Assembly: GCF_000003815.2 (NCBI RefSeq)
Contig: NC_049984.1
Span: forward strand, 12,269,186-12,333,185
Direction of reading: 5' to 3'
Length of the DNA stretch: 64,000 nucleotides
Source: Branchiostoma floridae
Taxonomy: Eukaryota; Chordata; Leptocardii; Amphioxiformes; Branchiostomatidae
Each line of letters begins with the position of its first letter. The first letter of the stretch is position 1. Both the position numbers and the translations under genes were made by a program. Below, piece by piece: positions 1-41,633 of this stretch. The notes beneath the pieces were generated by a model. That model did not search any database, was not told where the DNA came from, and saw only the letters and a program-made list of their open reading frames with translations.

Positions 1-167
1 GAGGGTATTGACAGTGTTTAAGACGCCGAGTATCTCCAATACACGTGCGTATTAAAAGATAGTGGACGGAATCTGTCGATACCATACGTTATGATCTAGT
101 GTTGTGGATCAATATAGGTAGTACTGAGTCCGTGCCGTGGTTCTGACGTGTGTTCTTTACCTCCCAG

Positions 168-6100: not shown

Positions 6101-9100
6101 ACGACAACCCAGTCTGTATTGTGAATAGACTGTCTTTGGAGTTTATGTAAAACTCAAACGTACTCGAAGAATAAAGTGAAAAACTTTAAGACCGTATAGG
6201 AGCTCCAAACTGTGACGTATTACCATTAGTAATTGTAAATAGCAACCAAGTCTGTATTCTTAGACTATTTAGGATTTAAGTGCAGCGTACTCTAAGAATC
6301 AAGTGAGAAACTTTGAGACGTTATACGAGCTCCAAATGGTGACTGATTGCATTGGTAATTGTCAATACCCTCCTTTTATTAGCGCGTTCGTGTATTGCAC
6401 CTGTATTGCTTACTTTCTAATCACTGTAATGTATTTTGAAGCTATTCTCTACCGTACATTCGGGTGTTAAGAGAACTCTACCTCCGCTGATCAGTCACAG
6501 TCAATGGTTTCCTAATACGGCCCATCTATCTTCATTTCTGTAACCATCAGTTGTGCTAATGTTCTTTGATTCCGTGCCACAGACGCTGGGTACTCGGACG
6601 CTGGGTGTAATGGCCTGGATAATACCGCTGTCAGTGGCGTTCTCTACCTTCGGAGCCGCCAACGGAACGTGCTTCACCTCAGGAAGGTACGGTACTTTGT
6701 GCAAAATAACCACGCAATATGCCATTTCACGGATCCAATTGCGCATGTCCCTGTCAAAGATGAAGGTCCCTGACCAGTCTCGAACATGATTTATACATGT
6801 CAAGATGTGTATGGCCTCCGTCGATTAGGTTTCATAACAATGCCCTGATGGGATTACGTTTCCGGGGCCTTCACCTTTAGCCTGCGCATGCGTAGTTGGA
6901 TCCGTGAAAGGATGTGTTGGGAATGGCAGATGGTGACGCTATGGAAAAGAAATTCCCGTGTTAGTGTGTCGACTTACGGCGTAGATCGTCTTACGAGCTA
7001 GATGTGGTAGCGTTTTCAAACAGGCTGTGGTAACATGGATTAAAGACAGCCTTTTCCGTAAGAAGACAAATGGGTCCCGTCAGAGACAAAGTGGGAGTAG
7101 TTTTTTTTTTGCGCCATCTATTGCCACTATGGAGCCAGGACACATGATCACACATGGCAGTTTCACAGTAAATGTTTTATCTATGTTGCCACTATTACTC
7201 GTAACGTGTACATTTGTCATTATATCATCCTATCAAATTATCCATTACACGAATCCCCCCCCGCGAAAAATCACTGACATTATTACTAGCTACAACAGGG
7301 AAGGCTGTAATGAAGAATATGAAAAGTGAAGTTCTCATATTACAGTCAGTTACTGTGCCACGCTTGCTACATACACGGAATGACTTTATTACACTGAGGA
7401 GTTCGTTTCTCATATAAACACGCATGCAGCCCCGGAGTGTGCCACCGTGCTCGGTGACTGTACCCAGTAATTATTCCGCATGAATGGCCCGGTATAATCT
7501 ATATAATCCGAAGGATATTTGATGTTTACATGAAAGCTAATGTAGCAAGACGCAATGAATCTTTCATGTAATTAACACCAGTTCCAAAACAACAGCGCAC
7601 CGCTCATATTAAGACAGCGGTCCTGGAGGATGGAGATAACGGTAATTGGCGCTATTTGCAGCCGTCAGATCTATCTCCAGCCTCTTATCTTCACAACAAT
7701 TTGACACATGTCATGTCGACATCGGGGCCACAGTTATAACTCACGACCAGAGACATCAGCGGGTGGGGCTAGCTCGCTTCACCCTGAACGTGGAAGCAAT
7801 CGTAACGTGGGTGCCATCTTCATAGGAAAGTTAGACTTTCTCATAAGAACACCATTTCAACTGAACGAAGTTTCAGATATGCCGCCAATATTAGCAATGT
7901 ATAAGTACTCATACACAGTGACATTGTTCAATATTTTCAGGTAGACACAAAGCTGATTAGATATGGTATACCATTTGGTGTTTACATGTACATGAATGTT
8001 TTTCATGGTTTATACCTTAAATGGTTTTAGTGCAGCTTGAGAAGAAAACCTTTACATTTTATAGACCCTGTTTGCTACAGCATCTCGGCGGGATACAATT
8101 TATCACTGATGCTTTATTTTGTTACCATATACATATATCAAACAAGAAATCAAAGACCCATGCCTCCATGCACGTGAAAAAATTGAGGGTTTTTGTGATT
8201 ATCTGTTAAATTCTAGCCCAATCCTTCTTTTATGCGCTTGAACAGATGATATTTAACGAGTCCCAATAGTACAAGCCAAACCGGGTGTCCAAACTGAGGT
8301 CATTGACCTTGCTTTGCAGACCAGCTGTCTACTGATTTACTTTTGGGGATGGGGTGTCGGCCTGCAGTAACTGGAAATACTGCCAGGGGGCCCAAAATGC
8401 TCGTTTTCTTGGAAGGCTCTATAACAATTCAAATTTCAACGTCCATACAAATCCATCAAAATGATCTTAAGTTATAGGCGCAAACATATACACAACCCAA
8501 AACAAGTCTAAGTATAGTGTTGGGCTCGGAATCTAGAGGTCTCGGGTTCGATACTAGCCATGTCCCCGACGTTGTGCCCTTGTGAAAGGCACTTTAGAGA
8601 CCTTCCACACTTCACCCAGGTGTAAAAATAGGTACCTGACTTCGGTCGGGTAGCTATAGGTAAAAAAGACTACCTTTACCTTCTGTCTGTGCCGTGTATG
8701 TGGCACTGTTGATATAAGTAACTAACTTGCGTGCAGTGCTACATTGTCCTCGTCTGTCCAAAAGCAAAATAAGCAGAAAATACAATACCCCCGAAGGTGA
8801 AAGTCCTTCCCTGAGGTAATAAGTACTCACAGATCAGAAGTATTCTAAATCTACACTGATACCACTTGTGATACATGCCGCAGAGCCTATCTTTTCGGTC
8901 ACAAGAATTATCTGAAAACGATTCCCAACATACATATCACTCCTTCCGTGCATTAGTCAGTCCTGTCAAAAAGCCTGACTATCGCCAAACGCTATCTTTA
9001 CTCGCTCAATCCTTTTAGTCTTGAGGATACTGATAAGATGAAGACCCATTGTACCATTACATCTGACGGAGAAGCATGCAGGTTCGGTCCTGCGTGCAAA

Positions 9101-12100
9101 TAGAAAGGTATATACAATATATGGATCATATTAGATATGGATCATATTAGAAAACGCTNNNNNNNNNNNNNNNNNNNNNNNNNNNNNNNNNNNNNNNNNN
9201 NNNNNNNNNNNNNNNNNNNNNNNNNNNNNNNNNNNNNNNNNNNNNNNNNNNNNNNNNNGAAAACCTTTCAAACTAACAATTCAATTGCAGGTTTTTGTGT
9301 TGATATATTTTGTACTGATTGTGTGCAATACTGTCGCCTGCCGCTAGGTTGTGCTACGTGGCTGCCCGTGAGGGTCACATGGTGTCCATCCTGTCCATGG
9401 TCCACGTCAGGCGGCTCACACCCTCACCTGCACTCATCTTCAACGTAAGGAATTTTCAACTTTTTGTATGGGAGCCTTCTATAGAACACTAGAATGCTTT
9501 TTGAAGGCCACAGCGAATACATATCATGGATTATATCTTATGCAGACTCCAAATCTAATACGAGAGCGCAAAAAGATGAACAATGCAAGAACAATAAAAG
9601 ATTTTTAAAATAAGACCATTTTTAGAAATCAGGCGAAAACCCGCGCGCTTTCTAATGTCATCCATTAAATTTACTTCATTTGAATGGTGAAAACTCTTTA
9701 TGTCAGAAGAACCACCTTCAAGTAGATATAAGCTGATACCAAGAATTCTTAGAGTTGAAACAGACACACGCGCTTTGACATTTCAAGAGCCTTGCTTTTC
9801 TTTCGCCGTATCGTCAGACAAACATATGGCTACATATCAAAACTAATTCACAGGATTATTTGCATTGATTCCTTTTTCTTTACTATTGAAATGAATATGC
9901 TATATGCATATAACCGTTACTCAAAACACTACTAAAACCCTCTTAAATAAAGTATTCATCTTTTTATTAAACAAGGAATCGTGATACACTTTTTGGTTTG
10001 TCCAACTTATCAGATGTTCAATAAATGTGTCCTCCGTCCTTGTAAACTACTTGTGACACTAAGTTTCCAGACAGCTATGTATTTGGGCTAAGTACATCTA
10101 CTAGATTCAAGCACAATCCCATCTTCATCAAAAAGCAATTCGACATAATAAGATATGATTTGGGGACTTGCGTGATACACAACATCATATAGAAATAATG
10201 GTAGCACATCTGGACATCTATATCCTGCTACAGCCACTAATCATGTACATTATTTATATCCGCTTAGTCTAATGGCACTGTCTTAGTGCTGCTGATTCCC
10301 TGAGAGGGCCATCAATTCTGAAACACTAGATCCTGTGCTGCGGTTTGTAGAGAGTGGAGGGTTTCAAACAGATGGTATACGTCACACAGAACTGTATGAC
10401 GATATGTATGATTTACGTACATTCTTCTATATTGAGCCACGCCCTCGGCCTGTACAATATACCTTGGGGAGGCTCTGTCCGCGAAACTGGGCTGAGGTTT
10501 CCACTTTTGTGGCCGTGGCCTCTAACCAGCTGTCAATCAATCAAAGAATCCACTAGATGTTTTCTTTATGTAACACCGATTCTCTGATTGGCTGACAATT
10601 GGTCAGAGGCCACGCCCACAAATGTGGAAACCTCAGTCCGGTTAAGCAGAGGCTCTCTAAGCCTTTGGTATATTGCATTGGTAGCGGGCGAGGCTCTACG
10701 TAGAAGAATGATGTACATACAATTATATAGCAATTAACCGAACAAATAATGGCACACTTTAAAAATGTTCGACCGTTTCAGAAAAGATGAAGAGATCAAA
10801 ATAAGTCCCTGCAATAGTGGATTATATACTAAATTAATGAGGAGGGGGATCCGGGAGACTATGGGAACAGGCAATTCAATGTAGTCTAATTATCTAACCA
10901 CAGAATATAGAAATAGTTTTACCCTACAACTGATTGATTTGCCTCGAGACTAAAGAATATAACAAATGGTGACAGTTGATAGGTCGTTTGTTTACACTTG
11001 CAATATATCACATCAGTCTTGCTCTCTCAACTAATTGATTCATTACCGCCGGAAATTACAGACGTTATAGAACGATGATTTGTGTACCTTTTCCGGTCCC
11101 CTGACTAATCCATGCTGTTCCCCTGCTTAATTAATTTGGCAATTGCTAATTCATCTTGTACAGGATGGGAACAACACTTGAGTATGAATAAGGCTCCCCT
11201 GATCACTTTAAATTCACATGTTCCATTTCCATTTCATGATTACAGAGCAGACGCACACGCGTACGGAATATCATAACGTGTGACGATAGAAACTTCAAAA
11301 CGTTCGGACAAGTATTCTTCTCCACTTTCCAGTCAAGGTTGGCTCTGGGTTGAGAGTAGCCTTGAATCCATCCTATTGTAGCTCGAGATCCTCTTATCAC
11401 ATCTAAGAATGATATGAGTCTTTATAGTGAGTTTGATTTGTACAAAATTCATGATCATAGTCGGCTGGCGCAGACGACTTTTAAAGATTAATATGCAACC
11501 GGTAACTTCGCCGGTCGGCCAGCTCTCGAACACTCCCGACTTACTCCCGACCATGGTTTGGATAAGATCGGGAGGCTATGCCGGCTATGTGTGACAGGAA
11601 CTTCAGTAGCTGTTGTTTTCAGATGGATACTACGTCTCGATCTATCGTCAATACAACCACAGTTATGTATTCTCGTCTTCTTTCCCAGGCTGTGCTGTCA
11701 GTGCTGATGATTCTCCCGTCCAACTTTGACGTCCTTGTGAACTACTTCAGCTTCGCGGCCTGGATGTTCTATGGCGGCACGTTCCTGGGTCTCATCGTCC
11801 TGCGCTTCACGAAACCAGACATGCCCAGACCGTACAAGGTGCATGTTTGTTTGTTGGGAATTTTAATTCCTAAGATACAAAGGCCAAACATTTCAAACAC
11901 TGTTTGTAGTTCTTGTAGTTCTTGAAGATTGAACTTTGTTGATTTTGACCTCGGAAGGGGAATGGAATGTCAATGGCATTGAATGACGCGCAACGGTAGT
12001 GTTTTGATTTTATTTTTGTTCCACAGAATATCGTCCACGGTTGTGCCCATCACACTGACTGTAACATGTATCCTGTATGCATATACCATGCCCTTGAAAA

Positions 12101-13038
12101 TCAACTTTTATAACTTCGTTGAAGAGGAAAACCCAGTTGTCTTGAAATGAACGGATGTGTGCACGTGTACGTGGACTCTCTGGAAAGCAGTGCCTGTGCC
12201 ACTGAGGAAGTTACCCTGATTAAAGAATACAGAAAAAAGGAGATTTCCCTGTCCTTTCCTCAACGTGGCACCACTTGTGTTCACTAATGAACATGTGACC
12301 AGTTGATTATGCCCTGGAATTGACGTTGTTTTGTTGCCTACTGTTTGAACGTCAGGTCCCTATCATCGTCGCTATTGTCGTCACGGTGGCGTCGGCCTAC
12401 CTGGTGGTGGCTCCTGTCATCTTTGAGCCCGCCCTGGAGTACCTGTACGCTCTGCTCTTCATCTTCGCGGGTCTCCTCCTCTACATCCCCTTCGTACATT
12501 ACAAGATATCGCCAAAGTGGATGGGTAAGAAATGCGTCATTTCTATCCGGTAGATGGGACGGAAGACACATATTGCATCTTTGAGACATACACTTCTGTG
12601 TTAGACAAAATACTATTAGACAATGTACGTTGCACAGAGGCATTGTGTATACGGTATCATAGAGGCATAGTCGGTTCCTATCAATAAACGAGTGGGTGAG
12701 GTGGCATTATCATAAAACAACTAGCATATATCAAGCCGGCACACGAGTAACACAAGTCCTGTATGACATATAGATCATTTCATCTCACACACCTTGAAGC
12801 ATTTGTTAAATCAAAGGTCAAGTTGAAAGTAATAGGCCCATTCTTAGTATACCCAGATGGAGAGCTAGCATTAGACTCAACTAAAGTGAAGTCAAAAATG
12901 AAATCAAAATGGAGCCGTCTCATTGGTTAATATGATGATTGCTGGTACTTATACTCCTTTTCTCCTACAGACCCAATAACCAGGCAATTGCAGTGTATCC
13001 TGGATGTGGTTCCAACCGAGCAGGAACCACTCGGCTGA
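168..13038 (+). CDS. Slc7a9-like: b(0,+)-type amino acid transporter light chain, Slc7a9-like copy A (5' end outside window)
   Basis: Eleven exons, read from conserved protein blocks, AG/GT borders and matching phases: 168-294, 1280-1398, 2627-2752, 3209-3317, 3688-3732, 4505-4628, 6583-6686, 9348-9444, 11689-11838, 12356-12524, 12971-13038 (TGA 13036-13038). The first coding exon (N-terminus and TM1) must lie left of base 1. Family knowledge: SLC7 light chains are 12-TM LeuT-fold exchangers that join an SLC3 heavy chain; b(0,+)AT with rBAT takes up cystine and cationic amino acids in exchange for neutral ones at the plasma membrane. Seen: [19 protein letters not shown], the TM6 block GLWAYDGW followed by [11 protein letters not shown]8 [25 protein letters not shown] (TM10), and a C-terminus [12 protein letters not shown] like the vertebrate b(0,+)AT end. 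The heavy-chain disulfide cysteine is kept (EPFYDVHC in the second exon). Unlike copy B, the TM3-TM4 region is split by an intron (295-1279). Only one exon 7 is seen, but the next intron holds an assembly gap. A possible ATTAAA poly(A) signal lies near 13474. Confidence 0.9.
735..800 (-). repeat. dispersed repeat tail (LINE-like 3' end)
   Basis: On the minus strand this reads GCCCGAGGGC-type sequence matching the segments at 22991-23065 and 31137-31213 (TTAGCCCTCGGGC, then TTGCAATRAACA). Three copies in 64 kb with an AATAAA-like end suggest the 3' tail of a non-LTR element or SINE; no coding part is seen. Confidence 0.5.
981..1235. mobile_element. palindromic MITE, family 1, degenerate copy
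   Basis: Both ends carry the inverted block seen in the better copy at 10421-10709: GAGCCACG...CAATATACC on the left and GGTATATTG...GGCCACGGACGAGGC on the right, with GAGGTTTCCACTTTTGTGG inside the left arm. It sits about 45 bp before the second visible exon of transporter copy A (1280), so it may supply part of the intron's 3' region. Class unknown; no clear target-site duplication. Confidence 0.6.
2777..2804 (+). repeat. (GTGTA)n short tandem repeat
   Basis: About five copies of a TAGTG pentamer directly after the exon ending at 2752, inside the following intron of transporter copy A. Confidence 0.8.
4243..4328 (+). repeat. 43-bp unit, two tandem copies
   Basis: A 43-bp block starting AACATTGTATATCGTG at 4243 is repeated almost exactly from 4286. 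It lies in the intron before the exon at 4505 of copy A. Confidence 0.9.
4933..4992. mobile_element. micro-palindromic insertion, 46 bp, with imperfect 7-bp flanking repeat
   Basis: The 46-bp core at 4940-4985 starts CAAGGAGGTTTTAT and ends ATAAAACCTCATTG, inverted copies with one mismatch and a degenerate centre. It is flanked by TCCAGAC (4933-4939) and TCCGGGC (4986-4992), 5 of 7 bases equal. It shares its ends with the elements at 46573, 47410 and 52872. Confidence 0.55.
4993..6582 (+). other. intron of copy A; ~128-bp duplicated segment at 6105-6370
   Basis: No coding signal is seen in this part of the intron between the exons at 4505-4628 and 6583-6686. Around 6105-6370 a block is present twice in tandem with many differences: CAGTCTGTATT / AAGTCTGTATT, and AGGAGCTCCAAACTGTGAC / ACGAGCTCCAAATGGTGAC about 128 bp further on. 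Confidence 0.6.
6725..6909. mobile_element. MITE family 2, 185 bp
   Basis: Terminal inverted repeat TTTCACGGATCCAA on the left matches the reverse complement of the right end (TTGGATCCGTGAAA). Inversion continues inward through GCGCATG and GAAGGYCCC blocks for about 45 bp. A diverged second copy is at 24461-24678, in intron 1 of transporter copy B. It begins only 38 bp after exon 7 of copy A. Confidence 0.75.
6910..9158 (+). other. intron 7 of copy A, left of the gap
   Basis: No second exon-7-like sequence (TLGxR...STFGAxNG) is seen here. It contains a full SINE (8512-8785) and otherwise unassigned sequence. Confidence 0.5.
8512..8785 (+). mobile_element. tRNA-derived SINE
   Basis: The head has a Pol III B-box-like GGGTTCGATAC (about 8544) after a degenerate A-box. 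A body follows with TTGTGCCCTTGTGAAAGGCAC and CACCCAGGTGTAAAAATAGG, then an end with GTGGCACTGTTGATATAAGT and GTCCTCGTCTGTCC and an A-rich tail. The reverse complement of nearly the same element is at 34926-35125, which helps fix its limits. Confidence 0.75.
9159..9258. other. assembly gap, 100 N
   Basis: A run of exactly 100 N, a scaffold placeholder of unknown true length. It lies in the intron between exons 7 and 8 of transporter copy A and could hide further exon-7 copies like those in copy B. Confidence 1.
10421..10709. mobile_element. palindromic MITE, family 1, best copy (289 bp)
   Basis: The two halves are inverted copies of about 140 bp. The left arm runs ATTCTTCTA, GAGCCACGCCC, CAATATACC, GAGGTTTCCACTTTTGTGG, GCCGTGGCCTCT. 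The right arm read on the other strand gives ATTCTTCTA, GAGCCTCGCCC, CAATATACC, GAGGTTTCCACATTTGTGG, GCGTGGCCTCT. There is no coding capacity. Further copies are at 981-1235 and, truncated, at 36575-36660; all three are in introns of the two transporter genes. Confidence 0.8.
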
Positions 13039-15859: not shown

Positions 15860-17068
15860 ATGGCCACTGCACGACTGTTGGCTGCCCTGGCCATCTTCGG
15901 AGTTTTGGGTCTGAAGTTTGCTGGTGTAGAAGGGGCGCCCGCGCCCTCGGAGCAGAAAGTGGATCCCATTATTCAACTACAAGATGATGTTTCCAAGCTT
16001 TACAAGGAGATTACAGCACAACAAGGTGTGTCCAAGGAACTGAGAAGTAGCATTAACCTGGTTCAGACTGACCTTAAGGATGTAAGGCGATACATGCACC
16101 AGATAGAAGCAGCGTCTTCTGCTAACCAAGAATCACCCATCAGCTCCTCAACCGTGGCACACACCAGAATCGTGTCTGCCTGCATCGACGACAAGGTGTA
16201 TCGTAAAGGTAAATCTGTCGTGTCAATCAACGGGAGGGAATACACCTCGCGGTATGGGAACGTCAATATTGTCACCTTTAACCAGACAACCGGACAGGTG
16301 ACGGGACAAGTGGCCTTCGACACGAGCAGGGGACAGGGTGGAGACATGCGGGTGTACCTGGACCAGATACCGCCTGACAGGGTGGTCCTCATCGCCATCC
16401 GTGACGTCGCGGTCAGTGTTCTGCCCACAGCCACTGACCACAAGCTGATCGAAGATTTCCAACTACGACTGACCAACTCTACCAAAGCAGACGAGGAGAA
16501 CTGGTTTGAAAAGGACACATCTTGGGTCATTGAGGAGACTGGAACCCCACATGTCTCTCATGGACATGTTTACGATGCCGCCAAAGTGCTGGACGGAAGG
16601 GGCGGCACCTTGTGGAATCCCGGTGGAGAGGGACGATACTACAATAACTGGAACATCGAATTCGATTTCCAAGCTTTTTACCAGATCTCGTCGATAAGAA
16701 TCCACAACTATGGAGACTGGACCCACGACGTGACCAAGTTCGTTCTCCAGGCGTCCTACAAAGTCGAGCCGTACGAGTGGATAGACGCGGTGTTCGGGGA
16801 ACTCCAGGACACGAGGAATGTTCGGGTACAGGAGTTCGGCGGCTTCTCGACCACTGCGAGGTTTTGGCGTTTCCTCGTCCAAGAAACCGGGAATGGCTAC
16901 CAACCGTGGCTCTGTGAGCTGGACTTCTTTGGATACAAGACACCGATGATGGCCTCCTTTGCCTCCATCGTCAAGAAGGGCTCCAAGACGTCTTGGGCCA
17001 TTGTCGACTCCAACATGATCGTGGACGGAGCTACCGTTATCGAGACCGTGATCCCTTTAGATGGTTAA
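15860..17068 (+). CDS. secreted ILEI/FAM3-like plus F5/8C (discoidin) domain protein
   Basis: Single uninterrupted frame of 402 codons, TAA at 17066-17068. Residues 1-25 form a signal peptide (ATARLLAALAIFGVLGLKF, small residues before APAPS), so the protein should be secreted. Residues 35-85 are amphipathic and probably a short coiled coil. Residues 104-200 resemble the ILEI/PANDER-like domain of FAM3 cytokine-like proteins and POMGNT1: YGNVNIVTFNQTTGQV, then AFDTSRG, IPPDRVVLIAIRD. Residues 228-360 resemble an F5/8 type C domain: DGRGGTLWNPG, WNIEFDFQAFYQISSIRIHN, ARFWRFLV, WLCELDFFGY. Two N-glycosylation sequons (NQT 141, NST 206). Only two cysteines are left after the signal (108, 352), so the usual F5/8C disulfide does not look standard. 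Close TATA box and an AATAAA at 17704 support a short complete gene. Ligand and role unknown; carbohydrate or membrane binding is inferred from the fold only. Confidence 0.85.
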   Translation: MATARLLAALAIFGVLGLKFAGVEGAPAPSEQKVDPIIQLQDDVSKLYKEITAQQGVSKELRSSINLVQTDLKDVRRYMHQIEAASSANQESPISSSTVAHTRIVSACIDDKVYRKGKSVVSINGREYTSRYGNVNIVTFNQTTGQVTGQVAFDTSRGQGGDMRVYLDQIPPDRVVLIAIRDVAVSVLPTATDHKLIEDFQLRLTNSTKADEENWFEKDTSWVIEETGTPHVSHGHVYDAAKVLDGRGGTLWNPGGEGRYYNNWNIEFDFQAFYQISSIRIHNYGDWTHDVTKFVLQASYKVEPYEWIDAVFGELQDTRNVRVQEFGGFSTTARFWRFLVQETGNGYQPWLCELDFFGYKTPMMASFASIVKKGSKTSWAIVDSNMIVDGATVIETVIPLDG

Positions 17069-23583: not shown

Positions 23584-26500
23584 ATGTCGGGAGAGGGCAT
23601 GGAGATGAAACACAGGATGTCAGGGGAACAGAACGGCTCCATAGCCGCCAAAGAGCCTCCCGGAGTGGAGACCATGCAGCTCAAGAAGCGGGTGGGACTC
23701 TTCAGCGGCGTGGCGCTGATCGTCGGGACGATGATCGGTTCGGGAATCTTCGTGTCGCCGAAGGGCGTGTTACGAGAGGTCGGAGGCGTCGGCCCGAGTC
23801 TGCTGGTCTGGACCGGGTGCGGAGTTATCTCTATGATGGGTAAGATTTTTTCCCATATTGTCGCTGTCATGATCGAGAATGGAATTGAGCGCTTTGCCTG
23901 AGTTTTCGCTACTTTCGAGGCAAACGTGCATGTGGGGCTTTCTGTCAGTGGCCGATTAACACCTGTTGACTGTATCTCCACACAAAGTAAAAGATTGGCG
24001 GCAACTTGATTAGACTTTGCCAAGAAGACATTGTTCCCGTAATTATGTTAAGGGTAACACAATCTTTTCATGTCAGGTGGTCTAATTACTAAACTGAGTT
24101 CGTTGACCCTTTCCTTTGGAGAACAATTTTTCCTTTACGTTTGACCTGTTTGCTTCCAAATTCTATCACGGCCTTCAAAAGGAACCGATACTTTCACCAG
24201 ACCACCTGGCAAGGGGGCGTTGAAAACTAATTTCCCGCCAAAATCGAGCGCTCATTTGCTTTTTCGCCGACGGCCATTGAATGGGCTTAATTGCCTCTCG
24301 GCTAAGGTAAACATGTAAGGGCTGCACAGGAATGAAGTGGGATATAATGAAACGGCACCTGGTCCTCAACTATGGTATTTACAATGTGGAATAACCAATT
24401 TACTGGGCAGTAGGTGAGCAGCACTGTAAATTTCACATGGGGTAATGAGTATAAGGCTGTCACGGATGAGGCCAACTGCGCATGCGCTGGTCAAATGTGG
24501 TCAAATGTGAAGGCCCTTAAACCATAACGTTAGATAAAACAAGTCTGGACATTGTTAAGCAAACCGACCGACGGAGGCTATATGTATCTGGACATACATT
24601 AAGTGTAGTCCAGACATGAACATTTTACAAGTCAGGGGGCTTCGCCTTTGACCTGCGCATGCACAGCTGAATCCATGAACATGCTTATTGGAGGACTTCT
24701 GTCTCATTGGGCGGCTCTACCAATGTTTGTTCGAACATGTCGCACGTATAGTTTATGATCAACTTGACTGCCCCATTGTCCCACCGTTATCTGTTATCAA
24801 TGTTTATACACATCGGGCGTGGCCACTGTTATCGCCATGTTGTAGCAAACGGCTGTCAGAGACTAGTATTGATTGATTGATTATACCCATAAAACTGCAA
24901 ACCGCAGCTACATGGTCTTATCTGTTTATCATAGAACATATAGTGACATATTAATACAGTCTATATCCAAAAACACATGTACATATCTCTACTGTTGATA
25001 TACCAAATGATCCACAGCAAGTCGAAACTAAAGTTTATGAGTGGTAGCAAATTGAAGATCAATCAAAAGCCAAATATAGAACATAACTAAAGATTCATCA
25101 TCAAAATCACAACTCATGAACCTAGTCTGTTGGTGTTGATAGTGGCATTTCAATCATATGGCGTCTCAAGAAAAGTATATGACTTTTAGACTTTGCAAAC
25201 GTGCAGATATTTCAGACAGCACCCACTGTCTTTCGTAGGTGACCGAAGAGAATCTGAAGTCCAAATGTCTTAATATTTGTAGTGAATATCTCATTACCGG
25301 GATGTCTAAACTTCATCAACATAATCTATTTCTCAGATGCAATTATACAGCGTTTACATGGATTTCTTTTTGAATCCCAACAGGAGCCCTTACATACGCC
25401 GAGTTGGGTACCATGATAACAGAGTCCGGTGGCGAGTATGCCTACTTGTTCAAAGCCTTCGGACCCATCCCGGCCTTCCTGTTCCAGTGGACGAACGTGA
25501 TCCTGCTCAAGCCGTCCTCTCTGTCCGCCATCGCTCTCAGCTTCGCCATCTACGTGGGGCAACCGTTTTACCCGGCATGCGTTGTTCCTGACGCAGTTGT
25601 CAAGTTCCTGGCAGCCGTCTGCATCGGTACGTTTGGTCTATCTGATGTCACTTTATGCAAAAAGACTGAATTAGATTTTTTTTAAATACAGTTCGTATGT
25701 TTGTATTAGAGAGGCGCACACTATTCTGTAATTGCATGTACACTTGTCAGTAACGGCGCGACCACATTCGCCATAGGTCGTATGATCGATTTTTGATATA
25801 GTAAATATCCGACAGGCTGTCTTAGATACCTAGTAACCTACGACAGCATTTTCGGTAACAATACATGTTATTTTCATACGATTCAGCCAAAACTAAAACA
25901 AGAATGTCCTCAGTTTGCGCTCGTACCACAATCGCACGATGAACGATCAAGATCATAAGTAATAGTGCTGTCACGTGGCTTGGGGTGCCTAGACCCCATA
26001 TATGGTCCCTTTCGGTCAATATTGTCCATGGTAAAATCCTAATTGATATCAGTCCTACAGCTTCGGCTGTGGCTTATACAAGAGTGGCAGTCTATGCCAC
26101 ATAGGTCCTAGATCAATGCCCCGTGACTCAAGTCGTACACTAAATAACACCATAGGCAAGGTAACAGTCAATAAGGGTGGTTCCTTATGTTTGTCAAGTC
26201 ACCGGTACCGGGGCACAACGTACGGCTTAGATCTGTATCAGCAACCTTTTGTATCAATCTTTTCTGGCATGGTTTAAGCTGATTTCTGTAAACACTACCT
26301 GTGATACCGGGAGGTTAGCTGAAACTATTTGATCTTGGCAGACAAAGCTTGCTTTCGTACTTCTTTTCAGCTACTTGTTTGATTTGTTTTTAAGGATGTT
26401 GTTTTCTGAATTTAAAGTTGGCAATGGTAGTTCGTCCATCAGATTGTGTTCTGTTAGTTCGCAAACCGATTACACAGCTAGCTTGAAACACGTAGAATAC

Positions 26501-29500
26501 TCGTAGGTCATTAACGGACCTAGCTTCTACGTTGTTCACATTCGTTCTGTTCAAAGTGTCTCAGAACAAGCATACTGGTGCAACACTGTACAACATTTAC
26601 ATTACTCATTAGTACACTAATATATGAACTCTGTACACAGTTTTGGTGACAGCCCTGAACTGTATAAGTGTGAAGGTGGCCGCCCGTATCCAAGTCTTCT
26701 TCACCGCTATCAAGGTGTTAGCCCTGGGTGTCATCATCGGCGTCGGCATCTACTCTCTGGCCATAGGTAAGAAGATGTGTTGAAATGTCTTAAACTCACT
26801 TCTTCTTGTTGGCACTCTAAATGATGAAATGTTCCATTTTCTTTACCCTTAAAGTTAAAAGTTAAATGCCCTTCCTCCACTATATATATGATGTATATGG
26901 TACATTTGTATAAAGCCCTTTGGCCACATAGCTTTCCTCTTATAATAGTATAATACAGGTTGACAAGCTGCTACTGTAAAACCGGTAATTATAAAGTGAT
27001 AGTAACACAACTCACGTAAGGGTCATGTAGAAAGGATACATTTTTCCCCGTTAATTACTGTTCTTCGTACCAGGCAACACCACATGGCTCAGCCCGGACA
27101 AGGCCTTCCAGACCGGGCACACCATCACCATCTCTGACATCGGTCTAGCGTTCTACCAGGGGCTATGGGCTTACGATGGATGGTAAGTAGGAACATGTTA
27201 TTGCCTTTCTTTTCTCTTATGAAGGTACATAGTATAAGGATTTGCCATCCAGACGCTGTTTTCATCACATTAGACAAGGAGAACAATCTTTCACACAGTA
27301 GGACCACAAAACGACAAAGATGGTATTGATAAGCGCACTCGATCCTTAGTTTCCCCATCGAATATTCTTTGCGTATATACTTGATATGTGTTTTGTTCTC
27401 TTTGTCAGGAATAACCTCAACTTTGTGACGGAGGAGATCGAGAATCCTGTCAGGTATGTTGTGTACTTCTTGAATATTCAAGAGGACTTTTTCAAGTGAA
27501 AAGACTTGTATTTAATACTCGATAGTTTAAATCCTACCGAGGACATTATTGCCAAACATATATGGCGTCGCCAAAACAATTTCACTTTCTGATTTCATTC
27601 TACAGAAACCTTCCGCTGGCCATCATGATCAGTATCCCACTCGTCACCCTGCTGTACGTGCTGGCTAACGTGGCTTACTTCTCCGTCATGACTCCCTCCG
27701 AGCTACTGGCGTCAGGAGCAGTCGCAGTGGTAAGATCCCAAACCTCCAACATACGTATAAAATCACTTCTTGAACTAAATAAATGTGTTAAAACTTCTGT
27801 TATAGCTTAAGTTTGTTGATGTCAAGCAATGTATCGTAGCAAATAAGAAAGACTCTAATATAACCATTGTTATTACAAGTACGTATCCAAATCTCTCTTA
27901 CAAACGTTTTCTATACTGTATGTTGCAGGATGGAGATCTAGTTTCATCTCGTGAGATCTCGTGAGATCATACGTGAACCAAATATATGTTTTATCCGTTT
28001 GGCTTTGTGTAGTCTGTTGCACTCTGTCGAAGTATTTCGTGTCGCTCGTGCTTGTCTGTAATGTTTACGTTTTTGTTGCTTGTTGTTTTAGGTCAGAAAT
28101 AAGAAACATAGATGTGTCGTGCGTCGCAATATTCTCGCTACCGACATGGGGAAAAAAGGCCCTGCAAGACAACTCTTCGTCCTACTTACGTGTTGTTCAT
28201 AGAACAGGACAAAAAGATACGTTGACGTCTATTAAGCCCATGTCTTAAGCACAGTAGGAAAATCGATCAGCCCACGAGTCTGCAAGTTTAGAAGTTTAGA
28301 TATCCGCCAGGTCAATGAGCCCCGTTCAACGTTATATGAGAGATTTTCAGATGAAAATGCGCGACTACATTCGGCAATCTTCTTGCAATGAACAAGTAGG
28401 GACTAGGCTCTTCGATTGTGTGATCAACACCCCTAACCTTAACCCTAACATAGGGTCGTCGCCACATAGGGTTGTCGTGACATAGGGTCATAAGCACACC
28501 AGTGTGTTGCATTTTCTAAAGGATGAAAAACAAGATTGGTTGAAAAAACACGGTTGTCTTGCAGAGCCATTTTTCTATCAAATCTCCCGTCACGTCCCAT
28601 ACATGTGTGCATGTGCATCTACCTCCACCCTTCCATGCTTCGCTACCCGCCTGTGACTCTCCACCACATGTCATCGCTCTTCCCTATGCCTACCCACAAG
28701 CCAACACAATCGATCTATATCACAGGAATAACATCTGATGATATTATGAAATCCCCGAAAATAAAAAATTACACGTGACTTTTGATCATACATAGCTCGA
28801 TGTTTCATTAGATATCTGCGTTGATTACACCTCTTTGACTGAAAATCCCTTTGTTCCATGAACTTCCGTCTGTATATTTTGTACGTACTGTGTCCTTTTG
28901 GTGCCTGGAATACAACCCACGGAGCTGTCATGTAGAATGGCCATAAAAGTATGCGGGGAGCAAAAAGAAAGTTGTTGCTACATGTATACTGAGACTGTTT
29001 CTCTGATCATTTCATGTCCTTAAGACGCCGTCGTGCCGGAAATGATAAACAGAATCGTTACTTCTCTAAAAAATCACACCAGCCCGATATGCTCAGCCTG
29101 CCATTGCTGCTTGCCGCCCATGATCATCGTGTGATTGCAACATTCCATCCATCCATGATTCATTCATTCCTTCCCTCCTTCATCCAGCCCTTTACCAGCA
29201 TCATCATAGCATCCTCATCCACCCCGCATAGCGACGACGCCACCTGCGTGTCACAGTGAATGACTATGACATTTCTCTCTCGTTTCTCCACCAGACGTTA
29301 GGAAACAGATGGCTGGGCGTCATGGCGTGGATCATTCCCTTCTCCGTCGCCTGCTCGACATTTGGCGCCTGTAATGGGACGGTATTTACGTCGGGAAGGT
29401 GAGCCGGGTGTGTCAGCCACCATAACCCAACCCTCCCTATCCATCCCGATCCCACAACCCTCTAGGCGCGTCCACACTACTAATCTGTGCACCTGATTTT

Positions 29501-32500
29501 TCTCTCCCCCTCCGATGATGTTCAGACGCTCGGTAACAGGTTCCTTGGCGTGATGTCGTGGGTTGTCCCATTTGCCGTGGTCTGCTCTACCTTCGGGGCC
29601 TGTAACGGGTCTTGCTTTGCGGCATCCAGGCAAGTCATATCCGACCGATTTCTTACATCACGAGTACGCACTGTAAAAGCTTCAGCAAGTACATTTTCTT
29701 GCCTTTTTTATTTTGACACTACAGACGCTGGGAAACAGATACCTGGGAGTGATGGCATGGATAATCCCGTTTTCCGTAGCCTGCTCCACATTTGGCGCGT
29801 GTAACGGATCGGCCTTCTCTGGGGCGAGGCGAGTACTCGGCCGGAAAGAACGAAAAACAGTTCTCATCTACTCTCCTTCTAAAAGCCTCATATGCCATCC
29901 ATTCTAACTGTCACATCTTGTCATTTCAACAAAAGCACATGCGCGTAAAAGAGAACTAAACCACATTCAGGTACTTTCGGATTGGTTAGACAGTGATATC
30001 AATGCGCAGCGTATACAGATGTTGAAGGGCCAAACAGGAATTCCACTTCTATCCTGAAAGCAACAAACAATAAAGCGCGAACTTGTGACGTCCTTTTATT
30101 TTGTACAAATGCAGAATGCTGTCAAAGCTTTTCCCTTCGAGCAGTAAAAAACTGAATCCATAGAAAATTACCATCCAACTTCCCACCAATGTTCTATGCG
30201 CAAAATGTAATCGCAAAGGCAAATATTTCACCGGCGGCAACTGAGTTTGAACTGAAGCTAGTATTGCAATCAGTCTTCCATCATAGTAAAAGAAATCAGT
30301 CATACCTTTTTTTCACACATAATTCATTCATTTCAACTTCGATCATTCCAAAGTCATCTCTTTACTTTTGATACTGTAAAACTCATGATTTTTCTACGGT
30401 AACGATATCGGTACTTTTGCACAGGCACAGCACAAGTGATGCGTAACTTCACAGCAGCATAGTGCATAGTACATAGCTTGCCAAGGCTGTCCTAACCACA
30501 CAGATATGAGTGATTTTAGCATGCTTCGCGTAAAGAGTGTTTGCCTTTGCTACGTAAAAGAAATACATTTGTATCTTATTATCTAGTTTCAACAGTTGAT
30601 ACTGTAATGGTAGTTATAGCTGCCACGTTGGAAGAAAGATTTGCAAGCCCCCCTCCCCACCTGTCACGCCGCATGACGTCACGACATTACCCATCATCCC
30701 TTGTGATTGGTTCCTCCCAGGTTGTGCTACACGGCTGCGCGGAAGGGCCACATGGTGGAGATCCTGTCCATGATTCACGTCAAGCTCCTGACGCCTTCTC
30801 CGGCCCTCATCTTCAACGTACGCAATCTTGTAGAATATACATTCTCATTCACAGTTTAGTCTATGTTTCTGATAGAAGTATCATACTAAGGTTGAAAGTT
30901 CATCTGTGCCAGTAAAAGTCATCCTGAAGCAAATATGAACCAGAAACTGCAATTTTCGACCAAAATTGTACTTCCCCAAATTTTTTACTGTCTATCTCCA
31001 GTCTTCAGGCCTTTTTCTCTCGGCCTTTTTATGTCACACAAGCGACTAAGGACAAAGAGAAATTGCGAGGAAAAAAAGAAGTGAAACCAAACAAAACCAG
31101 AATTTGCATAACATGGAATGAAGTTCTTCGTGTTATTGTACCTTTTCCCCATTATTATGTGTTGTTTGCACTTGAAATTAGCCCTCGGGCATGAAGTTGC
31201 AATGAACATGTTGAAAGTCCCGATTCCTTTATGTGTACAGTTTTCATTCATGGTGTCATTTACCAACACAGATTAAAGTTTCATGCTAACAATATACTGA
31301 CGTCTGTTCGTCACTCCTGTCTCCCTTCAGTCGTTCATCGCCCTCATCATGATCATCCCGAACGACTTTGACGCCATCATCAACTACTTCAGCTTCGCGG
31401 CCTGGATGTTCTACGGCGGGACGTGCCTGTCTCACATCGTCATGAGGTTCACTCAACCTGACAACGAGAGACCCATCAGAGTAAGTCTCTCTGTACAGGC
31501 TTGAGATATCAAAACCTGTGTTATCTCATGCTTTGCGTAGGGCTGGGGAGAATGATGTTTGTCTATATATTTTTATATTTCAGCCATACATAGTATGGTG
31601 AAATATATTGTATTCGTAATGTTTCTTCTTTCTTCTTTCTCCTGTCAAATCTTCAAAGTGATTCATCTCCGCCGTTCCTGGACCGAATGACCTGAAATTT
31701 GGCACAGGGGTAGAATGGGCCAATACCTTGATGCTTTTTTCTCATTTTTTTCATATCTGCCTCTAAAATGATTTTATTGAGATTTTTTGGTCAATTTTAG
31801 ACCAAAACTGTATATTTTGGCCCCTGTACCCTGGTATTACAACCAAATGAGCTGAAATTTGACAGAGATGTGCCTTGATAATGCCCCCATATAAATTCGA
31901 TAACACTTTTGGTGTACAGTACAACAAAATGCTTATTTTTGCGATTTTTTGACCTATTTTTGACCAAAAAAGGACACTTTTGGCCCTTGTACCCTGGTAT
32001 TACAACCAAATGAGCTGAAATTTGACAGAGATGTGCCTTGATAATGCCCCCATATAAATTCAATAACACTTTTGGTGTACAGTACAACAAAATGCTTATT
32101 TTTGCGATTTTTTGACCAATTTTTGACCAAAAAAGGACACTTTTGGCTCCTGTACCTTGGTATTGCAACCGAATGAGCTCAAATTTGACACAGATGTGCC
32201 TTGATAATCCCTTCATATAAATTCAATAACACTTTTGGTGTACAGTGCAACAAAATGCTTATTTTTGCGATTTTTGGCCAATTTTTGACCAAAAAAGGAC
32301 ACTTTTGGCTCCTGTACCCTGGTATTACAATTAAATGACCTGAAATTTGGTATAGATAGGCATTAGATACTTGGTAACAAGATTCAAGTAAAATTTTTGA
32401 CATAATCAACTTTAAAATGATTAATTTTGGCACTTTTCTGAGGGGAAATTTGTTTTCTTTTGGCCTCCTGACGTGACCTTCCGTGACCCCGCACAGAGCC

Positions 32501-35500: not shown

Positions 35501-36793
35501 TGTACGGTGGATTGTGCCCTTAGCTTGAGAGTGATTGGAACCATTTAGATTCTAAGACAACGTTCAACGCTACACTTTGGATAACCTTGTCTCCGTTGAG
35601 ACCTCCTTGTCATCTTTTAGACCACCATGCCTTTCCCTTAGCTTTTGCTAAAAGCAACAGCTTTTAAAGGCATTTCTAGCAGAAAACCGTTGCCAATATT
35701 TTTGTCAAAGCTTCAAGAAAACGACTTATCCACGCTACCTCAACACGAGAATTTTAGAGTGACGCAGGATTGAACATAATAGATAGAGTCACACAGTCAA
35801 CAGTGATAAGTGAATGCCTAAACTCTAAACCTGACTAGCTATATTTTTGTTGTTTTATTTTTACTTGCTTGCAGACGCCGATGATTTTCCCTGCCCTGGT
35901 CGTGCTCGCCTCCCTGTACCTGATTGTGGCGCCCATCATCAGCGAGCCGGACCTGTGGTACCTGTACGCCGCCATCTTCATCCTCGCGGGACTCCTCTTC
36001 TACTTCCCGTTCGTCCACTTCGACTACCACCCTCCCTTCATGAGTAAGTCTCACCATCTAAGCGGTTATCTTAATAGACTTCAACAAATTATGAAAGACA
36101 ATTACAAATAGCGCAAAACTGTCGTTGCCAATCGGCATCAATGTGTTGCCTGAACTTGAATTCTTTTTAATTGCCACAAATGTAGGCAAAAACCTTTTAA
36201 AACTCAAATTCAAAGAGACACAATACTGTACTGTTACAAATTGTATGAAATTCAGCTACGACAAAAAAGACTCGGCATTTCAAAAAGTACACAGAAGAAT
36301 TATTCTCCTATGCAGATCCTTGCCCGTGACCGATACAATATACTCGATACAATATACTTGAAACTCTACTAATACCAACATCGCATTTCCAAACCGGGGC
36401 CCGGCGGGACTGTTTGTGGAAAGGAAAAATAGAAATGTATACGTAAAATATACACAAATAATGCCCGCGAATGTTCTCTTTACGTCTTATGTAGTCTGGC
36501 GTCATCTATATCATACTTATGATATCTTTATAGAGAGCTGCCCTGCCGGGCCCAGGTCTAGAAATGTGATGTAGGCCTATAAAACCGGGTTGAGGTTTCC
36601 ACTTTTGTGGGCGTGGTCTCAGCCAATCAGAGAATTGCCTAAATGTTTTCTTCATACAAAGCCGATTTTGGTTGTCTCAGCGTACCAACATACTAACTTT
36701 ATATTTTTCTGCCGTCCCCCAGAGTACATCACCATATTTCTGCAGCTCCTGATGAACGTTTCGCCCCCCACCGAAGCGCCGAAGGACGTATAA
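23584..36793 (+). CDS. Slc7a9-like: b(0,+)-type amino acid transporter light chain, Slc7a9-like copy B, complete, with three alternative exons 7
   Basis: Exons: 23584-23839, 25384-25626, 26641-26766, 27074-27182, 27409-27453, 27606-27729, one of 7a 29295-29398 / 7b 29526-29629 / 7c 29725-29828, 30721-30817, 31331-31480, 35875-36043, 36723-36793 (TAA 36791-36793). With one exon 7 the sum is 1494 nt, 497 residues, close to the 487 of human b(0,+)AT. Seen: cytosolic N-terminus of about 33 residues, TM1 with [16 protein letters not shown] (substrate backbone site of the LeuT-fold APC family), heavy-chain disulfide cysteine at about residue 151 (QPFYPAC), TM6 GLWAYDGW then [11 protein letters not shown]8 in exon 7, [13 protein letters not shown], and C-terminus [17 protein letters not shown]. 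Role by family: plasma-membrane exchanger of cystine, cationic and neutral amino acids paired with an rBAT-like SLC3 subunit. Exon sizes equal those of copy A except that A has an extra intron in the second exon. Intron 9 (31481-35874) is swollen by repeats. No clear AATAAA follows the stop. Confidence 0.93.
24461..24678. mobile_element. MITE family 2, diverged copy
   Basis: Left arm CACGGATGAGG, CTGCGCATGCGC, GGTCAAATG, GAAGGCCC. Right arm, read on the other strand, CATGGATTC, CTGTGCATGCGC, GGTCAAAGG, GAAGCCCCC. Same ends as the 6725-6909 element. It is in intron 1 of copy B. Confidence 0.6.
28429..28450 (+). repeat. short CCCTAA-like interstitial telomere-type motif
   Basis: Three hexamers resembling the animal telomere repeat (CCCTAA, CCTTAA, CCCTAA) in intron 6 of copy B, followed by ATAGGGT words. 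Too short to be more than a motif. Confidence 0.5.
29128..29226 (+). repeat. pyrimidine-rich low-complexity stretch before exon 7a
   Basis: CATTCCATCCATCC and CATTCATTCCTTCCCTCC words form a C/T-rich tract about 70-170 bp upstream of exon 7a. It could bind pyrimidine-tract splicing regulators, which is inference from position and composition. Confidence 0.5.
29295..29398 (+). CDS. Slc7a9-like: alternative exon 7a of Slc7a9-like copy B
   Basis: 104 nt, phase 0 in and phase 2 out, acceptor TTTCTCCACCAG, donor AG|GTGAGC. It encodes [15 protein letters not shown] then [20 protein letters not shown], the start of TM8 and its unwound FGACNG segment. Of the three it is closest to 7c: six differences, at W/Y and in the last seven residues. 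Because 104 is not a multiple of three, joining two versions or skipping all would shift the frame. Confidence 0.93.
29526..29629 (+). CDS. Slc7a9-like: alternative exon 7b of Slc7a9-like copy B (GC donor)
   Basis: 104 nt, same phases as 7a. It encodes [15 protein letters not shown] then [20 protein letters not shown], 11 differences from 7a. Acceptor GATGATGTTCAG follows a T/C tract with a good branch-point match TACTAAT at 29478-29484. The donor is AG|GCAAGT, a non-canonical GC donor with otherwise perfect U1 match. The intron from 7a is 127 bp. Confidence 0.92.
29725..29828 (+). CDS. Slc7a9-like: alternative exon 7c of Slc7a9-like copy B (GC donor)
   Basis: 104 nt, same phases. It encodes [15 protein letters not shown] then [20 protein letters not shown]. 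Acceptor TTTTGACACTACAG; donor AG|GCGAGT, again GC. The intron from 7b is only 95 bp. No stop codon or frameshift in any of the three versions, so none looks like a dead copy. Confidence 0.92.
31137..31213 (+). repeat. dispersed repeat tail (LINE-like 3' end)
   Basis: Contains AATTAGCCCTCGGGCATG and TTGCAATGAACA; third copy of the tail also at 735 and 22991. In intron 8 of copy B. Confidence 0.5.
31680..32345 (+). repeat. satellite-like array, ~162-bp unit, about four copies
   Basis: The anchor CCTGTACCCTGGTATTACAA recurs at 31824, 31987, 32150 and 32312 (spacing 163, 163, 162). Between the anchors lie GCTGAAATTTGACA, GATGTGCCTTGATAAT, AACACTTTTGGTGTACAGT and ATGCTTATTTTTGCGATTTTT. The array is in intron 9 of copy B. 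Open frames on its minus strand (31797-32216, 32179-32550) are by-products of the repeat. Confidence 0.9.
32346..33690 (+). repeat. two diverged tandem copies of a 620-750-bp repeat
   Basis: Blocks seen around 32345-32925 return around 32945-33670: GTATAGATAGGCAT, AGCCAATCAGCGAAGAGGA, AATATTCATAAGCGGG, GCATTTTAGACTATT, ATATCTAYGATAATCG and TTGTTGACGGTCT. The second copy also has a G/C-rich insert (33280-33375). Some words are shared with the neighbouring satellite, so this is one complex repeat domain in intron 9 of copy B. Confidence 0.75.
34618..34663 (+). repeat. short inverted repeat (hairpin)
   Basis: CTGAAAATTGTTAATGAC is followed after about 10 bases by GTCATTCAACAATTTTCAG, an almost perfect stem of 18 pairs. 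It is in intron 9 of copy B; function unknown. Confidence 0.7.
34926..35125 (-). mobile_element. tRNA-derived SINE, minus strand
   Basis: Reverse complement of the 8512-8785 element. On the minus strand it has the tRNA-like head GGCGTAACTGGTAGAGCTTT with GAGTTCGATTCCCACC (A- and B-box-like), then GTGCCCTTGGGAAAGGCAC, then the end GTGGCATTGTTAATATAAGT and GTCCTCGTCTGTCC. The middle of the body is deleted relative to the 8512 copy. Confidence 0.75.
36575..36660. mobile_element. truncated family 1 MITE
   Basis: Has AAACCGGGTTGAGGTTTCC, ACTTTTGTGGGCGTGGTCTC and AGCCAATCAGAGAATT in the order of one arm of 10421-10709; the second arm is absent. It lies 63 bp before the last exon of copy B. Confidence 0.65.
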
Positions 36794-39342: not shown

Positions 39343-41277
39343 TCAGTATCTGAAGTTCGGAGGTGGTGGAGGTGGTGGCGGGAAGTACGAAGGATAGTTC
39401 GGTCTCAAGTTAGAGAAGGGGATGGGCTGGTTATAGCACATCAAGTCCAGAACACTCTTGTTGGGCGGAACCACGGACAGGAGTTTGTCGTAGTTGAACA
39501 TCTGCTGGCCGGTCGGACGGTAGAACGGTTCTGGGTCCACCACGTCGTACCTGGGCATGGGCGGGTTGGTGGGGTACCGCTGATGGGGCAGTCTCTGGTA
39601 CTCCCGGCTAACCGGGGACGGTCTGTCCTCTGACCCGCGAGTTCTGTTCGGAGACGGGTATCTGTCCTGCGGGAAGGGGCTGGCACTCCGCACGGGGGTG
39701 GCACCGGAGAATCTGTTCTCGGGGAAGATGCTGGCGTTAGGAGCTGGGATCCTGTCGTTGCTGGCGGGGAGGAGACTGTGAAAGTTCGGGTAGGCCCTGG
39801 CGCCGGTAGCCAGAAAGTCTCGGTCACCGTACCGGCTTCTGGAGGGGAAGGCATGTCCGTTAGGCTGGTGGCACTCGTACTCACTGGAGGATAACGAACT
39901 TGAACTGGAGCTCGTCGCGGTGTTGTACGGCGGGAAGAAGCAGGGAGACCGTCTGTACTGTGAGATCGGCACGACCGGGTGACGCGGGGGGTAGACGGCG
40001 CTAGAGGACAGCCTCTCGGCAGCCGTTTGCGTCGGTACGGTCCCCGACGGCGTCGAAGTCCTGATCGCGGTCCCCACGAAGTCGTCCAAATCCAAATCGG
40101 AATCAGAATCTGACGAATCGTCGTCACCACCACATTGCACTGCAGTGTCCTGGAATTTTTTGGGCGAAACTCTCGGTCTCACACTGCCGCTCGTTGCAGT
40201 CTCGCTCGGTCCCGCCGCGTGCAGGATAGAGTCTATGGCGAAGGGACTTTGCAGGGAGGACACCTCGGATGCAGGGCTCTCACTGCCCGCGAGGTTTCCC
40301 GAGTCTTCCGAAGTAGTGGTGCACACAGACCCTGGAGTCTCGTAGTCGGCCTCTCCCTCTCGCTCACTGGAACTGTCCTGTTTCTTCAAGGCATCCTTCG
40401 GAACCTTGTCCTCGTACACGGCCCAGTAGTTCCCCTTGGCGAACGGGCGGCTGGGGTCCTTAGGCACCTTGTAGAAACACTTGTAGGTGGACAGGTTGTG
40501 GCGTACGGAGTCTTTCCAACCCGTGTAGTCACCGCGGAAGAACGGGTACATTTTCTGGAAAGAAGAGGAGGGATAGTGGTTAGTGTACAGGCACAATAGA
40601 GTATTCCATCACTGAAAAACCGAACAACTTGAATCAAGGAGGCTTTTATAATATCAAGGAGGCTTTATCAAAAATGATACACAAATTTGGCAAACATGTA
40701 GTTGAAAGTAATGTAAAAGTACAGGTATATGGACTTTCGACCAAAAGGTTTGCAGCAACACCAATGACTATATATACATAACTAGTATACATTGATGAAC
40801 AAATATTATGCGTTGCGGAATAGTTGAACAGTTCTTGCTGTAGTAGGCGTTGGGATCCAAGACAAGTCTTGTGTCTATGGGATTACGTGTGGGATTCAGA
40901 AGAAATTTTCCAGCTAACTGAATCTATTAGTGCCCCATTCATGATTGAAGTGATATTGAAAGGTGGGATGTAAAAACGGTACACACCTTGAGTGCTTCGT
41001 GTATCTCCTTCAGCGGTAGCTTCTTCTCAGGTGCGTTCTGTATCGCCATGACGACCAGGGCCAGGTAGGAGTACGGCGGTTTGGGGTAGCGCTGGTACTT
41101 CCGCTTCCCCTCCACCTCGTCCGTCCGCCGGTAGTTCTTCCACCTCACGTTCGCAGCGTTCTTCTTTCTTTTGGCGGGGAGGGACGCACGCTTCCCCGAG
41201 GAGGCTGTCTCGGAGGAGTCGGTGTCTGTCCCCACCCGTGGGCGCTTGCTGGGCGGCTGGCTGGTGGGAGAGTCCAT
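39343..41277 (-). CDS. FoxH1: FoxH1 forkhead transcription factor (Nodal/Activin-SMAD partner)
   Basis: Two coding exons on the minus strand: 40987-41277 and 39343-40554 (TGA 39343-39345); the 432-bp intron is phase 0 with donor AAG|GTGTGT and acceptor CTTTCCAG. Start chosen at 41275-41277 (AGGATGG context); the frame stays open upstream, so a longer N-terminus or another 5' exon is possible. 500 residues. The forkhead domain spans about 64-155, cut by the intron: [40 protein letters not shown], then [31 protein letters not shown] and [14 protein letters not shown] are typical of FoxH1 rather than other Fox classes. [10 protein letters not shown] motif at about 460 matches the SMAD-interaction motif of FoxH1. 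The middle is Ser/Pro-rich and acidic; the C-terminus has eight prolines. By family it is nuclear, recruits phosphorylated SMAD2/3-SMAD4 and activates Nodal targets in axis and mesendoderm patterning. Confidence 0.92.
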
Positions 41278-41633
41278 CCTGGTGAGGCAGGGGGGGATGG
41301 AGCCCTGGAGGTCAGCATCAGTTGGGAGACTGTGGATAGGAAGGAGGCAAATCATTAGGCAAGCTCAAGAAACAAACAGACAAACAAATACAACTCATTC
41401 AGTACATGCATGAAATTACAAGGATCTGATACGATTAGATGTTTTTGTGACGAACTCTACTCCTAACATAACCTAGCATCACCCAGCTATTGACTACAGA
41501 ATCATTGGACCCTAGGCGTACTTCCAATTCTCCAAGTATCCTATTGCACCACCATCATACATGCTTGTTTGTTTGTTTGTTTATTCTTTATTTAACCAGG
41601 ACTCACCAAGACAGACACAACCCCCTATGCGAT

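Follow-up and report, generated by a model that had tools for sequence, protein, structure and literature searches.

Can a single lancelet gene make three forms of one amino-acid transporter by swapping a transmembrane segment? The question is raised by gene B, which lies in a 64,000-nucleotide stretch of Branchiostoma floridae contig NC_049984.1 (assembly GCF_000003815.2; hereafter the window) and carries three tandem versions, 7a, 7b and 7c, of its exon 7. Gene B has 11 coding-exon positions and, when its exons are joined in silico with any one of the three versions, encodes a protein of 497 amino acids. This protein matches Pfam AA_permease_2 (E 2.3e-58). Among solved structures (PDB sequences), b(0,+)AT matches it best: it scores 553 bits, against 477 for a consensus xCT construct and 441 for LAT2, and is thus the nearest solved SLC7 protein. 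D243 and N246 of gene B align with b(0,+)AT Asp233 and Asn236, and the cysteine of extracellular loop 2 (EL2) is conserved too. Asp233 has been linked to the recognition of positive charge (PMC9110406). These matches mark gene B as a b(0,+)AT (SLC7A9)-like light chain, in agreement with the original prediction, which had been made from the DNA letters alone.

The three versions are built so that only one of them fits into a working message. Each is 104 nucleotides (nt) long, follows an AG acceptor, is open in frame 0 and has the same phases (0 in, 2 out), as had been predicted; their pairwise identity is 67–75%. When all eight possible subsets were joined in silico, the three single-exon choices ran on uninterrupted to the regular stop (codon 498), and the other five (none, the three pairs and all three) met a stop at residue 345 or 347. 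The earlier claim that using none or two would break the frame therefore held for every such subset, and the triple fails as well. Because of the shared length and phase, with only single choices open, one of 7a, 7b and 7c would be taken per working mRNA. The early stops of the five failing subsets lie 278–596 nt upstream of the last exon junction, and by the usual junction rule mRNAs with such stops are expected to be degraded; wrongly joined gene B mRNAs would thus probably be lost. A survey of human exons accepted length incompatibility as a ground for mutually exclusive status, and described as further mechanisms a steric block (less than 50 nt from donor to branch point) and a clash of U2- and U12-type splice sites (PMC5740500). 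Neither of the latter is evident here: the cassette introns measure 127 nt (7a–7b) and 95 nt (7b–7c) and the donors look U2-type, with branch points not fixed. Nor did RNA folded from 29200–29900 show extra stability relative to shuffled sequence (z 0.30; 12 of 20 shuffles at least as stable). Taking length, phase and reading frame together, we regard mutually exclusive use of 7a, 7b and 7c as likely.

We also scanned the window in six frames with a position-specific scoring matrix (PSSM) made from the three exons and from exon 7 of paralog A, which is likewise b(0,+)AT-like and lies in tandem with gene B (window positions 1–12523; an exon-1-like match for it lies upstream of the window at L019:935-1174). 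These four exons scored 162.5 (7a), 158.5 (7c), 154.8 (7b) and 144.3 (paralog A); as the matrix was made from them, their own scores are circular, and only the gap to the rest is informative. The next-best score was 18.0, and the maximum of one shuffled window was 20.3.

The substitutions that separate the copies bear the marks of coding sequence. Silent divergence is 1.98 between 7a and 7c, 2.95 between 7a and 7b, and saturated between 7b and 7c, and all three pairs have an excess of third-position changes (p 0.0002–0.002). In neutral simulations of the 7a–7b and 7a–7c pairs (20,000 each), none retained the observed amino-acid identity free of stops. Nonsynonymous divergence (dN) is 0.032–0.138 in codons 1–28, which we call the core, and 0.54–1.02 in codons 29–34, the tail. 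Near-saturated silent sites around a nearly fixed core led us to reject dead copies, and we consider it very likely that all three are real coding exons under purifying selection. Gene conversion is an unlikely source of the near-identical 7a and 7c cores, as their silent divergence is approximately 1.8 within the core itself.

To what extent is the triplication peculiar to gene B? The window sits in a 28-Mb contig, and a search of the lancelet's own 513-Mb assembly returned at least 12 matches with 7a as the query (E≤0.001) and at least 14 with 7c (E≤0.1); 14 candidates were scored per query, so both counts are lower bounds. At least 11 of the 7c matches lie outside the three copies, one in paralog A and the others in ten further LAT-type genes. 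Among the matches listed, and in the stretches examined, all 11 of these genes have a single exon 7 of 104 nt with AG and GT borders. Paralog A was examined in the window, eight genes in 9-kb loci by PSSM scan, and two in loci searched by tblastn; the stretches include a run of 1,272 Ns at one locus (L018) and a run of 100 Ns (9159–9258) in paralog A intron 7. The same locus, L018 (C19:15806000-15815500), has a LAT-type exon 7 of 104 nt whose second half is without the usual FG..NG motif. These comparisons indicate that 104 nt is the common size of exon 7 and that gene B, with three copies, is the exception. They agree with the predicted gain of exons in gene B. The accompanying claim that paralog A has a single exon 7 stands in that one copy was found, with the 100-N gap inside its intron 7 qualifying it.

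The three B copies all share F16, C20 and C26, residues that every one of the 14 single-copy exons compared (11 from lancelet and 3 from mammals) lacks; the triplication is therefore assigned to the gene-B lineage. The number of amino-acid differences is six both between 7a and paralog A exon 7 and between 7a and 7c, from which no order of events is implied. A recent duplication was rejected because the intron flanks of 7a, 7b and 7c are at most faintly alike (p 0.012–0.59 over six comparisons). Collapsed haplotypes or misplaced paralog exons could in principle mimic such a cassette, and the window does contain two N runs (9159–9258 and 57048–57147). However, 9259–57047 is free of them, the copies at 67–75% identity are far from allelic, the window belongs to a long contig, and the three shared residues are absent from the single-copy exons. 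With near-saturated silent sites beside a nearly fixed core, which we took to rule out dead copies and assembly artefact alike, an artefact is extremely improbable.

The differences between the three versions gather at the end of the exon. Between 7a and 7c, one of 28 core residues differs (W6Y) and five of six tail residues do (post hoc Fisher p 1.3e-4); 7a and 7b differ at six core and five tail positions (p 0.008), and 7b and 7c at six and four (p 0.048). Four of the five positions with three different residues fall in the tail. This combination is not seen between the single-copy LAT exons. A first comparison covered 12 of these (66 pairs), and the exons of L017 and L018 then extended it to 14 (91 pairs): no pair among the 91 combines six or fewer core differences with four or more tail differences, and the 38 pairs with at least five tail differences each have at least nine in the core.

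The place of the tail in transmembrane helix 8 (TM8) gives this pattern its potential meaning. Exon residue 29, which is gene B residue 330 (7a has T, 7b and 7c have S), aligns with b(0,+)AT T320 (6yup). In native xCT (7p9u), a single offset of 8 fits Ser330, Gly334, Phe336, Ala337 and Arg340, and Gly334 falls in the residue-330 column. One paper notes that the Gly334 position is threonine in b(0,+)AT and proposes that it affects the range of b(0,+)AT; it places GkApcT M321, which controls selectivity, at the same position, and describes ligand-free xCT as having a break in TM8 between Gly334 and Ala337, and b(0,+)AT as likewise having an unwound TM8 segment, hence a larger pocket (PMC8654953). 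AdiC W293, LAT1 S342, SteT K295 and GkApcT M321 have been described as equivalent, with K295C and M321S markedly broadening selectivity (PMC8399266). Exon residues 29–32, which align with the xCT TM8 break, are T-V-F-T in 7a, S-C-F-A in 7b and S-A-F-S in 7c. By alignment, the tail starts at a published TM8 substrate-selectivity position and spans the stretch that is unwound in xCT. The original prediction had assigned exon 7 to TM8, and the alignment to b(0,+)AT and xCT upholds this assignment and sharpens it to the selectivity position at which the tail opens.

Alternatively, a genuine, mutually exclusive cassette could act on assembly, trafficking or gating and not on substrate choice. The same alignment map puts exon residue 6 (W, F and Y in 7a, 7b and 7c) close to where TM8 begins on the extracellular side, with the tail heading toward the cytoplasmic side; the loops EL4a and EL4b have been described as touching rBAT and as a lid on the extracellular gate (PMC9110406), and exon 4 of NKCC2 is reported to affect trafficking as well (PMC7818487). 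Two b(0,+)AT chains, moreover, differ by the same T/S exchange at this selectivity position. We nevertheless find this explanation unlikely, although it deserves weight, because the tail, which in xCT and b(0,+)AT has been linked to how ligands fit, holds four of the five positions with three different residues. That altered substrate choice is the main effect of the cassette is about an even call.

Splicing offers a further clue. The splice sites of the three exons had been called intact; the AG acceptors are present and the donors look usable, but the description was overstated, because 7b and 7c have GC donors and 7a alone has GT. Functional GC donors are expected to have strong flanks. Scored without the two donor letters, on consensus splice-site frequencies, the flanks of 7b (8.7 bits) and 7c (7.3 bits) are the best among gene B's 12 donors, with 7a at 6.6 bits. 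As GC-AG junctions make up approximately 0.8% of those in human coding genes, and a GC donor of let-2 in Caenorhabditis elegans provides a precedent for regulated use (PMC7242645), two GC donors among three cassette exons are unlikely by accident, with the caveat that the reference rate is human and not lancelet. The GC donors could instead mean that the protein uses 7a only and that 7b and 7c are regulatory (poison) or residual exons; their full donor scores fall below that of 7a, and any joint inclusion brings an early stop. Yet both exons have kept an open frame, the shared length, an acceptor and an almost invariant core despite near-saturated silent sites, which is hardly expected of poison or dead exons, and both have the best flanks in the gene by these frequencies, so we hold this alternative to be improbable.

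From these features we infer how the three versions would be expressed, how their splicing would be regulated, what decay would do to wrong products and how transport would be altered. Exon 7 would have been triplicated in tandem within the gene-B lineage. Each mRNA would take 7a, 7b or 7c, and other choices would shift the frame and probably be degraded. The default version is probably 7a, because it has a strong GT donor and a tail that closely resembles those of b(0,+)AT and paralog A, and 7b and 7c, whose GC donors have strong flanks, would probably be chosen in particular tissues or stages. A nearly constant TM8 core with an altered pocket-shaping segment would then most likely yield three transporters with different substrate preference or affinity. 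Our tentative proposal, to which we give a little under an even chance, is that a swap of the TM8 pocket segment lets one gene encode three transporters of the b(0,+)AT type, with the GC donors as the regulatory switch, and that the pocket-side tails have diversified to an extent that the compared exons otherwise show only when they come from separate SLC7 genes whose cores differ far more.

Several points weigh against reading the cassette as mutually exclusive exons with different substrate preference. Between separate genes, too, the tail varies more than the core (61% versus 40%, mean of 66 pairs), and the core/tail split was taken from the first description of the same data, which makes the clustering p values post hoc. 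The full donor scores are 6.0 bits for 7b and 4.7 for 7c versus 10.6 for 7a, and exons with such low-scoring donors might seldom be included. The cassette is known here from the genomic sequence of one lancelet species alone, and the residue mapping rests on sequence alignment, not on a structure of gene B. Chain 7nf6 of b(0,+)AT, which we take to be from sheep, has Ser where 6yup, presumably human, has Thr, so the T/S change at residue 29 alone may do little. Ovine b(0,+)AT structures have been reported (PMC9110406).

If the proposal is right, nature has carried out a domain swap at this locus: its three transporters would be identical outside TM8 and would differ mostly at or near selectivity positions known from relatives, which would make the role of TM8 in amino-acid choice directly testable. 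Alternative splicing would here replace gene duplication as the source of transporter diversity, and the SLC7 family would have a second alternative exon, adjoining the one known in CAT-2.

Table 1 Coding exons of gene B and the comparison exon of paralog A (window positions; a slash marks the exon–intron border)
Feature	Position	Strand	Remarks
Gene B coding exon 1	23584..23839	+	ATG at 23584
Gene B exon 2	25384..25626	+	EL2 cysteine, aligned with b(0,+)AT
Gene B exon 3	26641..26766	+	in silico gene assembly
Gene B exon 4	27074..27182	+	with exon 5 carries D243/N246 = b(0,+)AT D233/N236 (alignment)
Gene B exon 5	27409..27453	+	in silico gene assembly
Gene B exon 6	27606..27729	+	partner upstream of cassette; donor GTAAGA
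Gene B exon 7a	29295..29398	+	104 nt; GT donor
Gene B exon 7b	29526..29629	+	104 nt; GC donor CAG/GCAAGT
Gene B exon 7c	29725..29828	+	104 nt; GC donor GAG/GCGAGT
Gene B exon 8	30721..30817	+	partner downstream of cassette; TM8–TM9 loop = region of CAT-1/CAT-2 alternative exon
Gene B exon 9	31331..31480	+	in silico gene assembly
Gene B exon 10	35875..36043	+	in silico gene assembly
Gene B exon 11	36723..36793	+	includes stop
Paralog A exon 7	6583..6686	+	104 nt; donor GTACGG; comparison exon

Within intron 9 of gene B lies a tandem repeat of 163 bp in 3.6 copies (31765–32349). Between paralog A and gene B, an open frame of 402 amino acids (15860–17068, + strand) has Pfam ILEI and F5/8 type C matches. 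Downstream, at 39343–41355 (− strand), two open frames probably represent one forkhead gene with an intron, because each matches part of the Pfam Forkhead domain. An open frame of 597 amino acids at 60166–61959 (− strand) has two CxxC...CxxC stretches, zinc-finger-like by eye, and no Pfam match at E≤0.001.

How does the cassette compare with known systems? The original prediction had known of no described case in b(0,+)AT. We likewise found no report of an alternative SLC7A9 exon 7 among the open-licence PMC papers listed for mutually exclusive exons with amphioxus or SLC7A9, nor by term search of a zebrafish slc7a9 paper; vertebrate b(0,+)AT, the best PDB sequence match of gene B, differs from it in this respect within the literature searched. 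What that claim missed is a cassette known elsewhere in SLC7, in the TM8–TM9 loop of CAT-1 and CAT-2. CAT-2A/CAT-2B (SLC7A2) and exons 6a/6b of teleost Slc7a1 are, as in gene B, alternative homologous segments of an SLC7 transporter, described as affinity-setting in CAT-2, and the alternative segment of zebrafish Slc7a1a is given as residues 352–399, running approximately from the middle of TM8 to the middle of TM9 (PMC7584565). They come in two versions, whereas gene B has three. CAT1 S343 (9uat_A), whose counterpart in mouse CAT1 has been described as a carboxylate ligand (PMC13022406), aligns gap-free with xCT Ser330, and gene B R336, encoded where exons 7 and 8 meet, is the aligned counterpart of CAT1 R353. 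If the zebrafish and 9uat_A numbering agree, the CAT cassette would start approximately where exon 7 ends, and there may be a small overlap. The TM8–TM9 loop of gene B is exon 8, which was found once and forms no CAT-type loop cassette; since the CAT-1/CAT-2 cassette covers this loop, gene B varies a different exon.

For the donors, the parallel is C. elegans let-2, a collagen gene and not a transporter, in which a weak GC donor like those of 7b and 7c is described as essential for regulated alternative splicing (PMC7242645). For the cassette as a whole, NKCC2 (SLC12A1) has three tandem homologous exons, 4B, 4A and 4F, one per transcript, each coding for one membrane-spanning segment of the transporter; exon 4 is said to specify affinity, and the same account mentions a mature transcript with two of the exons (PMC7818487). 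NKCC2 is a cation-chloride cotransporter, and its exon 4 covers transmembrane domain 2 (TMD2) and part of the next loop in 32 residues, whereas exon 7 of gene B has 34 codons plus 2 nt. By analogy, the gene B cassette is closest in form to NKCC2 and closest in family to CAT-1/CAT-2.

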